Under the pieces are notes generated by a model, which saw only the letters and a list, made by a program, of their open reading frames with translations, did no database searches and was not told the origin of the DNA. Shown here in pieces: positions 33,420-36,738 of a stretch of 36,882 nucleotides of DNA (position 1 is the first letter of the stretch; each line of letters begins with the position of its first letter). Position numbers and translations under genes: made by a program. The DNA comes from a bacterium CG_4_9_14_3_um_filter_65_15. Its GTDB lineage: Bacteria; Krumholzibacteriota; Krumholzibacteriia; LZORAL124-64-63. The stretch lies in contig PFVX01000012.1 of NCBI GenBank assembly GCA_002790835.1, forward strand, positions 1 to 36,882. Reading direction: 5' to 3'.

Positions 33420-33455
33420 AAGGCGGCACCCGGCGAGTTGGCCGGATGCCGCCTT
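33420..33455. terminator. Bidirectional intrinsic terminator
   Basis: AAGGCGGCA (33420-33428) pairs with TGCCGCCTT (33447-33455), and an inner CCGGC/GCCGG continues the stem. On the minus strand it is followed by TTTTT, so it ends the thioredoxin transcript efficiently. On the plus strand GGCGTTTT follows, so it also serves the phosphodiesterase operon. The two gene ends are 21 and 15 bp away. Confidence 0.85.
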
Positions 33456-33470: not shown

Positions 33471-34646
33471 CTATTGCGTTTCGGCGGCCGCCGTGAACTT
33501 CTGCAACTGCTCCTTGTAGTAGTCCTTGTCCGGTGCGAGATCGGCCGCGCGCTGGGCGAAACCGACCGCGTCGGCCAGCTGCCCCCGGGCGGCGCTGATC
33601 TCGGCCGCGGTGTCGAGGATGCTCGCGCGCGCTTCATCATCCCGGGCGAGATCGACGCCCTGCATGGCGAGCTTTTGCGCCTCGTCCAGGTTGATCTCGT
33701 TCTGGAAACACCACCAGGCGAAGCTGTTCAACTGGCCGGCATCCTGCTGCCAGTCCTCAGGCAGCATGCCCTTGCGCAGCTTGACGGCCTTGCCCGCATC
33801 GTGGTCCACCAGCAGGGCGTGTTCCACCATGAGCCCCTGCCGTGTGGGGCTGGGTTCGGCATCTCCGATGTCCTGGTCAAGGGCGGCCTTGAGGTAGGGC
33901 GCGGCCCGCTCGGGAATCTCCATGGACTGGGCCAGGCTGGACATCATGGCAGCCAGGGACTCGATCTGGTCGACGGTGGCGCCGGGGGCGGCCAGGGCCA
34001 GGTCGGCCTCGGATGCTACCTCGTCGAAGGTGAAGACCGAGTCGCGGGACCCGTAGAACATGTTGCTCAGGATCTGGTCCGAGCAGTAGGCCGCGCGGGA
34101 GGGGTCCAGGTCGCGAGCGGTGCGGAAGTACTTCACCGCCGTCTTGTAGTCCATGACGCAGGCGGCGTCGTTGGCCAGGCACTCGGCCAAAGCCCCGTTG
34201 GGCTCCTTGGCGAAGGCCTCCTTCTTGGCCGCGATGGTGCGTGTGTCGGAGCGGGCCTTTTCCACGGAAGCCACCCAGGCCTCGACGCCGTCGAAGCCCA
34301 GCCAGCGGTCGGTGATCTCACCTTTTCCGTTGACGGCCACGAAGGTGGGCAGAGCCCGGATGCCGTACTTCTCGGCCAGTTCCCTGTTGTTGTCGGTGTT
34401 GACCTTGGCAAAGACTGAGCCCTCGAGAGCGGCCGCGATGGCAGGGTTGGTGTCCGCCGCACGGGCGAACTGACGGCAGCTGGGTCACCAATCGGCGTAG
34501 AAGTCGACGATCACCAGCTGGTTGTTGGCCTGAGCCGCAGTCAGGGCGGCGTCGAGGGACTCTGCAGGGGTGACCTGGGCCTGGGCGCCGCCTGCAACGA
34601 GCAGGACGAGGGCGCAAAGGGCCAGGGTCGGGCGGGACTTTGCCAT
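33471..34646 (-). CDS. Selenocysteine-containing thioredoxin with helical-repeat C-terminus (UGA read as Sec at residue 54)
   Basis: One continuous frame runs from ATG 34646, 7 nt after GAGGAG, to 33471, broken only by a TGA at 34487-34485. Residues 1-24 are a signal peptide. The thioredoxin fold follows: VIVDFYADW, then the TGA, then PSC, so the TGA stands at the first Cys of W-C-x-x-C and the motif is W-U-P-S-C. The domain continues with AKVNTDNN and the cis-proline in ALPTF (P100), all after the TGA and in frame. A bacterial-SECIS-like hairpin starts 14 nt after the TGA. Residues about 140-391 are helical TPR-like repeats. It is probably an exported thiol-disulfide enzyme. Alternatives are a pseudogene or a TGC-to-TGA sequencing error. 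Without readthrough only a 53-residue peptide would form. Confidence 0.85.
34452..34487 (-). promoter_or_regulatory. In-frame UGA and bacterial SECIS element
   Basis: The UGA codon occupies 34487-34485. Fourteen nucleotides later GTTCGCC (34470-34464) pairs with GGCGGAC (34458-34452), giving seven pairs with one G-U over the loop CGTGC (34463-34459). The distance from UGA to the loop is 21 nt, and a G stands at the second loop position. Published features of bacterial SECIS elements, namely a loop about 16-37 nt from the UGA with a G among its first two bases, are met. It would recruit SelB with Sec-tRNA. Confidence 0.75.
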
Positions 34647-34675
34647 GAACGAACTCCTCGGCACAGGGAACGGCG

Positions 34676-34698
34676 CGACCGGGGAGAATCCCCGGTCG
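34676..34698. repeat. Perfect 10-bp hairpin in the thioredoxin leader
   Basis: CGACCGGGGA (34676-34685) and TCCCCGGTCG (34689-34698) pair completely around a 3-nt loop. It lies about 30 nt upstream of the selenoprotein start, between that gene and the amidohydrolase gene on the same strand. It may be a terminator for the upstream gene without a U tract, or a leader structure. A TATATT -10-like box lies about 20 bp upstream on the minus strand (34722-34717), but no good -35 box accompanies it. Confidence 0.5.
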
Positions 34699-34762: not shown

Positions 34763-36451
34763 TCAATTTTGGTGGTCAAAGACCACCCGACCATCAACCA
34801 CGGTGTACAGGACCTGCAAGTCCAAGAGGTCCTTGTCGTTACAGGTGGACGGGTCCCCGTCCATCACCGTGAAATCGGCCCGAAATCCCAATTTGATGCG
34901 TCCCGATGCGTTTTCCAGGAAGGCCGCGTAGGCGGATTCGGCGGTGTACAGCTCCACCGCCGTGCGACCGTCCAGGCGCCCGTCGGGTTGCCAGCCGCCG
35001 GCCGGGGTGCCGTCCGTGTGCTGGCGGGTGCGGGCTGCGTAGAGGCCCAGCCGAGGGTCCACGCGCTCGATGGGAAAATCGGTGCCGAAGCAGAGGTGCG
35101 CCCCGCTGTCGAGCAGCGACTTCCAGGCGTAGGCTCCGGCCTGCCGGGCCGGGCCCAGCCGCTGGGGCACCCAGTCCATGTCGCTGGTGCAGTGGGTGGG
35201 CTGCATGGCGGCGATGACGCCCAGTTCGGCGAAGCGGGGGATGTCGGCGGAGTCCACGATCTGGGCGTGCTCGATGCGCCAGCGGCGGTCCGCGCCGCCC
35301 AGCTCGGGCAGCGCCTCGGCGTAGATGTCCAGCACCATGCGGTTGGCCCCGTCGCCGATGGCGTGGGTGCAGATCTGGAATCCGGCCTCGCCCAGTTCCC
35401 GGGCCACTTCCAGCAAATGTTCGGGTGGGGTGACGGCCAAGCCGCGCGACCCCGGCTGGTCCGCATAGTCGGCCAGCAGCAGGGCGCCGCGGCTGCCCAG
35501 GGCGCCGTCGGCGTAGAGCTTGACCGCCCGGGCGGTGATCATGCCGTCGGGTGAGGTGAAGGGGCCCTCGCTGCGGGCCCGGGCCAGCACCTCGGGCATG
35601 TCGTCGAACATGCCGTAAACGCGCAGGGTCAGCTTGCCGGCGGCATCCAGTTCGCTGTAGATGCCCAGCCGCTCCCAGTCCAGACCGGCCTCGTGGACGC
35701 CGGTCACACCGAAGCGCGCGCAGTGGTCCAGGGCCAGTTCGATGCGCCGCATCTGTTCGGCGCGGTCGGGTTCGGGAATGGCGCCGCGCAACAGGTCGAC
35801 GGCGTTGTCGATGAGGATGCCGGTGGGGCGGCCGGTGGCGTCGCGCACGATCTGGCCACCGACCGGATCGGCCGTTTCGGCGGTGATGCCGGCGGCCTCG
35901 AGGGCCTTGCTGTTGGCCCAGGCGGCGTGGCCGTCGATGCGGCGCAGCAGAACCGGATGGTCGCCGCTGACGGCGTCGAGCAGGGCGCGGTCGGGGTAGA
36001 CCTGCTTTACCCAGTCGTTCTGATCCCAGCCGCGGCCCTCCAGCCAGCTGCCGTCGTCGCCTGCGGTCTTCGCCGCCTCCTCCACCAGCCTGGCCACCGC
36101 TGCGGCCGAAGGGGTGCCCACGGCGTCGATCTGGGCCAGGGAGGCTCCCAGACCGTAGAGGTGGCAGTGGCTGTCGACGAATCCGGGCAGCAGGGTGGCG
36201 CCCGCGAGGTCGATGACCTGGGTGTCGGGGCCCTGGAGCTGTTTTGCCCCGGCGTCATCGCCGACGTAGGCGATGCCACTGCCCGTGACGACCACGGCGG
36301 TCGCGGGAGAATCGGCGTCCCGCTCGGTCAGGGTCAGAATGCGGCCGCCCAAGAAGATGATGGAGGCGGTCACGGGTCCGTCGGCGTTGTTTGAGCGGCA
36401 ACCGGACGATATGAGCAAGGCGAACACGAACAGGGCGAACCGGAACCGCAT
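34763..36451 (-). CDS. Exported amidohydrolase (YtcJ-like, amidohydrolase_3 family), probable lipoprotein
   Basis: The 562-residue protein begins with a hydrophobic signal ending LLISSGC (C18), which could be a lipobox. The metal-dependent hydrolase barrel has HxH in DSHCHLYG (H95, H97). It continues with KLYADGALGSRGA, CTHAIGDGANR (His ligand), RIEHAQ (His ligand) and FGTDFPI (Asp ligand), the order of the amidohydrolase_3 group. N- and C-terminal beta segments (IIFLGGRILT and DFTVMDGD) close the small domain. These enzymes hydrolyse C-N bonds in amides or cyclic compounds; the substrate cannot be told. The ATG at 36451 follows AAGGTGG. It stands on its own, upstream of the selenoprotein, with no signs of transfer. 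Confidence 0.9.
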   Translation of the reverse strand: MRFRFALFVFALLISSGCRSNNADGPVTASIIFLGGRILTLTERDADSPATAVVVTGSGIAYVGDDAGAKQLQGPDTQVIDLAGATLLPGFVDSHCHLYGLGASLAQIDAVGTPSAAAVARLVEEAAKTAGDDGSWLEGRGWDQNDWVKQVYPDRALLDAVSGDHPVLLRRIDGHAAWANSKALEAAGITAETADPVGGQIVRDATGRPTGILIDNAVDLLRGAIPEPDRAEQMRRIELALDHCARFGVTGVHEAGLDWERLGIYSELDAAGKLTLRVYGMFDDMPEVLARARSEGPFTSPDGMITARAVKLYADGALGSRGALLLADYADQPGSRGLAVTPPEHLLEVARELGEAGFQICTHAIGDGANRMVLDIYAEALPELGGADRRWRIEHAQIVDSADIPRFAELGVIAAMQPTHCTSDMDWVPQRLGPARQAGAYAWKSLLDSGAHLCFGTDFPIERVDPRLGLYAARTRQHTDGTPAGGWQPDGRLDGRTAVELYTAESAYAAFLENASGRIKLGFRADFTVMDGDPSTCNDKDLLDLQVLYTVVDGRVVFDHQN

Positions 36452-36738
36452 GACAACCACCTTGGAAGAGGGAACGGGCCAAGGGGGAGAGTACCAGAAG
36501 GGGAAGGGCGGGGAAATGGCGGTTTCGAGTCCCACCCGGGGAGCCAAGTTTTTCAGGTAGGAAAAAGCTGTTGGATTTTGGCAGGTCCGAGGGGGCCTGC
36601 TTTTCGGTTTGGAGGCCGTATTTGCCAGGGTTCGGCTATTGCCGGTTCTCTCGGAATCCTGCGGACCATGATTTCCTCCGTAAACGACCTCTGGATCCGC
36701 TCTGAGTCTTGTTCCTCGTGTGGTATCAAGCAGGATGC
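36452..36738. other. Gene-free stretch with a terminator-like hairpin
   Basis: About 290 bp without a supported gene. GC content falls toward the right. A hairpin of GCAGG-T-CC (36581-36588) with GG-CCTGC (36594-36600), followed by TTTT, looks like an intrinsic terminator on the plus strand, but no plus-strand gene ends here. Otherwise I see nothing. Confidence 0.4.

Follow-up and report, generated by a model that had tools for sequence, protein, structure and literature searches.

A conserved hairpin downstream of an in-frame UGA codon points to a thioredoxin-TPR selenoprotein in Krumholzibacteriia

Introduction

A thioredoxin-like gene on the minus strand of contig PFVX01000012.1 (assembly GCA_002790835.1) is interrupted by an in-frame UGA at positions 34487-34485. 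Is this codon read as selenocysteine, and is the hairpin behind it the signal for doing so? All positions refer to the 36,882-nucleotide stretch of DNA that was analysed, hereafter the window. An original prediction, made from the letters alone, had described the hairpin as SECIS-like. The comparisons below make it almost certain that the hairpin is a bacterial SECIS element, predicted to direct selenocysteine (Sec) to the UGA of an apparently exported thioredoxin-fold protein; SelB binding and insertion are what we infer from them. The mechanism is the standard, already known bacterial route of selenocysteine insertion. The features of the locus are collected in Table 1.

Table 1. Features of the selenoprotein locus, in window coordinates
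Feature	Positions	Strand	Basis and remarks
Selenoprotein gene, 391 codons including Sec	33471..34646	-	ATG start, TAG stop; one in-frame UGA; 29 homologues; Pfam Thioredoxin 1e-14; AlphaFold pLDDT 93.8
Shine-Dalgarno AGGAG	34654..34658	-	7 nt before ATG; similar GGAG motifs in most homologues
Hydrophobic signal peptide, about residues 1-23	34578..34646	-	read by eye: MAKSRPTLALCALVLLVAGGAQA; hydrophobic leaders in homologues
In-frame UGA, predicted selenocysteine	34485..34487	-	residue 54, W-U-P-S-C; Sec or Cys in 30/30 aligned proteins
UGC codon, resolving Cys57 of UxxC	34476..34478	-	invariant column
SECIS stem 5' arm GUUCGCC	34464..34470	-	sequence, conserved pairing
SECIS apical loop CGUGC	34459..34463	-	G at loop position 2; CGUG invariant; Arg codon bias
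SECIS stem 3' arm GGCGGAC	34452..34458	-	sequence, conserved pairing
Intrinsic-terminator-like hairpin 3' of gene	33420..33455	-	15-pair stem with T run; consensus match only

The hairpin and the bacterial SECIS model

The two arms of the stem form seven pairs, one of them U-G, around a loop of 5 nt. The stem begins 14 nt and the loop 21 nt after the UGA, and the energy of the hairpin is -9.5 kcal/mol. Upon re-measurement the coordinates and counts of the original prediction (7-bp stem, CGUGC loop, 14 nt, 21 nt) proved exact. The published constraints on bacterial SECIS elements are a loop of 3-9 nt, an upper stem of 4-16 bp, a G in the first two loop positions, a UGA-loop distance of 16-37 nt and a folding energy of -7.5 kcal/mol or lower (PMC13188914). 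The element lies inside every one of them, in loop and stem size, loop G, spacing and energy alike; for the stem, the loop and the spacing this had been claimed before. It also resembles the consensus model in having a 5-nt apical loop on a 7-bp stem 21 nt from the UGA, in lying within the coding region, in carrying G then U in the first loop positions and in folding with less than -7.5 kcal/mol (PMC13188914). It departs from that model at the two ends of its loop, where base 1 (C) and base 5 (C or A) are unpaired whereas an N1-N2 pair is frequent there, and in a primary sequence that looks lineage-specific (PMC13188914).

Taken in one sequence alone, the hairpin is only modest evidence, indeed weak, with a 2-6% chance of arising at random. 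The GC content of the window is 67%, and of the 761 TGAs that occur in any frame of its two strands, 43 have behind them an equally or more stable hairpin of the bacterial SECIS type. Synonymous-codon resampling of the same peptide yields an equally stable hairpin in 1.9% of cases. The original prediction, in which the hairpin was taken to make a random nonsense mutation less likely, was right as to function but gave too much weight to a single sequence, whose naked RNA favours another fold that is not common to the homologues.

The naked 61-nt RNA of the window does not fold into the SECIS stem. Its minimum-energy fold pairs UGGUG with CACCA, and its stability is not in excess (z = 0.42). With UGG-UGA included, the SECIS stem has a probability of 0.02, and with an RNA that starts after the UGA, of 0.24; the value rises to 0.94 when the first 9 nt after the UGA are withheld. 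A decoding ribosome covers the first bases after the UGA and hence resembles the last of these cases. A low stem probability in isolation is found also for three homologues (L024, L033 and L035). The alternative fold was set aside as the relevant structure because its pairs are not kept by the homologues (59%, as against 99% for the SECIS stem). A clearly better alternative fold had been named beforehand as grounds for abandoning the element. Taken literally, such a fold does exist when the window RNA is folded naked, but it is not common to the family, so that the objection holds for that naked sequence only.

Conservation among homologues

When the recoded protein was searched against 80 genomes of the phylum, which all belong to a single class, 29 of them yielded a homologue that carries one UGA and no more, at the residue where the window gene has it. 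Protein identity descends to about 28-30%, and the frame is open on both sides of the UGA. The stem recurs in the same register in all UGA homologues with at least 6 of its 7 pairs, and 98.5% of the stem cells are paired over 28 distinct sequences. The outermost pair, which is lost in three sequences, varies between GC, CG, UA, GU and UG, and one middle pair between GC, GU and AU. Two-sided changes occur in 7 cells, at two pairs, a figure reached by 0 of 500 shuffles; the covariation score likewise exceeds all 500 shuffles, which ignore relatedness. If the 3' arm is slid by 1-3 bases, only 35-57% of the pairs remain. The conserved hairpin and the compensatory changes that the original prediction proposed to look for are therefore present, and the G that it placed at loop position 2 belongs to a CGUG invariant in all UGA homologues. 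Since both the UGA and the hairpin are kept in 29 related bacterial genomes, the signal is real.

The element was also turned into a covariance model, and in the 80 genomes this model matched strongly (E below 1e-4) only at UGA genes of the thioredoxin-TPR family. The matches in G003, G006 and G067 are independent, these sequences not being in the model, while other members match by construction. Over the window's own genome the model found no second confident site.

In four genomes of one other family (G007-G010) the Sec position is occupied by Cys, within WCSWC, WCVYC or WCGPC. The predicted folds of the Cys homologues (L047, L049, L051 and L146) do not contain the SECIS stem. Pairing in the same register amounts to 2 of 7 in L047 and L051 and to 5 of 7, with the loop GCCGA, in L049, where it is perhaps due to chance or perhaps a remnant. 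In the tree a single branch (support 91/83) sets the Cys forms apart as a group, adjoining a Sec form. With its root at a midpoint only and two long Sec rows, this tree is compatible with an exchange between Sec and Cys in either direction.

Selenocysteine machinery

The genome of the window encodes tRNA-Sec (69.6 bits, over the cut-off, UCA anticodon) together with SelB (308 bits), SelA (446 bits) and SelD (361 bits). The selD gene (G000:C8:31606-32523, minus; L154) itself carries an in-frame UGA at the usual Sec position (KSAG-U-AAK), and SelD is therefore likely to be a second selenoprotein of this genome. SelA was found in 78 of the 80 genomes; G048, a 90%-complete draft that contains the UGA gene, gave no SelA match.

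Alternative readings of the UGA and the hairpin

The simplest alternative would be a nonsense mutation or sequencing error next to a hairpin formed by chance in GC-rich DNA. The frequencies of equally stable hairpins at TGAs of the window and in resampled codons speak for this reading. It is refuted by the homologues: the same UGA comes back in 29 separate assemblies at the low identities given above, in a frame open on both sides, with a stem maintained by compensatory changes. We consider this reading extremely improbable. An equally slight chance attaches to the idea that this organism has reassigned UGA to one of the standard amino acids. No evidence in its favour was found, and ordinary stop use refutes it, most of the clear genes of the window ending in UGA where expected. 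Moreover, the genome has a tRNA-Sec, and the UGA aligns with the Cys of a redox motif, not with Trp.

The hairpin might also be a by-product of protein conservation (F-A/T-R-A/E-A/V), with the UGA decoded otherwise, for example by near-cognate read-through. The peptide around the stem is indeed conserved, its Phe and Arg being invariant in 26 UGA genes, but the choice of codons goes beyond the peptide. All 26 genes examined use CGT for the loop Arg, while CGT makes up 6.8% of the Arg codons elsewhere in those genes, and wherever one of the two following codons specifies Ala it is GCG (27 of 27 cases, against a background of 25%). Pairing even survives an amino-acid change: where Ala is replaced by Thr (GCC to ACC), the opposite arm has a U, and an A-U pair results. 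The Cys homologues, which do not fold the stem, and the full Sec machinery of the genome also speak against a protein by-product, which we regard as very unlikely, if marginally less so than the two readings above. A bacterial SECIS element remains the preferred reading.

Architecture of the predicted selenoprotein

In the protein an apparent signal peptide is followed by a thioredoxin domain (PF00085, 1e-14), and the C-terminus is helical and TPR-like. A structure predicted with AlphaFold2 from 30 family members reached a mean pLDDT of 93.8. In it residue 54 immediately precedes helix 55-66, the place that the first redox Cys occupies in thioredoxins. The sequence profile matches designed TPR proteins as well as thioredoxin, DsbD and PDI structures, and all members match PF13098 and PF13899 in addition. 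The Pfam match, the W-U-P-S-C motif, the invariant Sec/Cys column and the model all agree with a thioredoxin-fold selenoprotein of the UxxC type. The protein is not a small cytosolic thioredoxin of the TrxA kind (about 105 residues, single domain), having 391 residues with a leader and a TPR region; the NCBIfam thioredoxin model scores 61 bits against a cut-off of 96.8.

As the UGA enters the A site of the ribosome, the CGUG loop would have bound SelB-GTP together with its Sec-tRNA(Sec), the loop G being the expected SelB contact, and selenocysteine would be inserted at residue 54. Once the protein had been exported, W-Sec-P-S-C would serve as its redox site, Sec being the attacking nucleophile and Cys57 the resolving residue. 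The TPR-like domain at the C-terminus probably serves to bind a partner or a substrate. A third Cys, C313 (33708-33710, minus strand), follows a conserved AWW motif in the TPR-like domain (FAWWC in the window) and is invariant in 30 of 30 aligned members; this residue may have a role in the redox cycle.

Several other elements were seen in the window. Directly upstream, the selenoprotein gene is preceded on its own strand by an amidohydrolase gene (Amidohydro_3, 34763-36547, minus), and at least eleven homologous loci have a similar C-terminus, recognized by eye, in the equivalent position. The gap between the two genes contains a perfect 9-bp hairpin, CGACCGGGG-ATTCT-CCCCGGTCG (34676-34698, minus), which lacks a T run and may be a leader or terminator element. 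An Rfam scan of the window found a TPP riboswitch alone (RF00059, 65.5 bits, 2388-2493, plus), just before an open frame at 2505.

Relation to known proteins

Thioredoxins that contain Sec (PF00085, UxxC) are known, for example in Geobacter and Anaeromyxobacter (PMC1794560, PMC13188914). The present protein shares with them the thioredoxin fold and a Sec that substitutes for the first cysteine of WCxxC, but differs in its apparent signal peptide, its 250-residue TPR-like C-terminus and its score below the NCBIfam thioredoxin cut-off. It is similar to the thiol:disulfide interchange selenoprotein (PF13098, UxxC) in its PF13098 and PF13899 matches and in being likely exported; the TPR extension present here is not mentioned for that protein in a 2026 review. 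The top Foldseek match is E. coli YbbN (CnoX, PDB 3qou), in which a thioredoxin domain is likewise followed by TPR helices, although superposition over the whole chain is poor (TM 0.23-0.31). Phage and viral collections yielded only generic thioredoxins. YbbN, to our knowledge, has neither a UxxC motif nor a signal peptide.

No NCBIfam model above cut-off was found for the thioredoxin-TPR subfamily, and the 2026 review makes no mention of a tetratricopeptide or TPR selenoprotein. The subfamily thus appears to be undescribed, an absence from these two sources not amounting to proof.

Recurrence of the SECIS core in a different gene

Eight weak covariance-model matches elsewhere in the class were opened; seven did not resemble UGA genes in a sensible frame, whereas one, L161, did. 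It lies in a different UGA gene (G001:C145:9165-9599, minus; LLLAPT-U-PGCQAGA), which has a UGA homologue in L166 (G007:C33:34480-34902, minus), the motif of the pair being APT/SPT-U-PGCQ. Both carry GCGCC-CGUGN-GGUGC at the identical distance of 21 nt from the UGA. G007 has this gene although its own thioredoxin-TPR homologue uses Cys. In G001, as in the window, the isolated fold prefers another structure. The second gene supports, as an independent case, a CC-CGUGN-GG core that recurs in the lineage. On a broader reading, to which we give an even chance, the window gene would represent an undescribed exported thioredoxin-TPR selenoprotein subfamily of one class, whose SECIS core (CC-CGUGN-GG, 21 nt) is common to at least one other selenoprotein family. 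Such sharing would suggest either a common SECIS ancestor or a narrow, lineage-specific rule of SelB recognition.

Significance

If UGA is treated as a stop in gene calling, this protein is split into two pieces, and both the gene and its family have therefore probably been missed or misannotated. The 29 natural SECIS variants, together with a Cys sister group that still has SelA, should be useful for the study of SelB-SECIS recognition and of the exchange between Sec and Cys.
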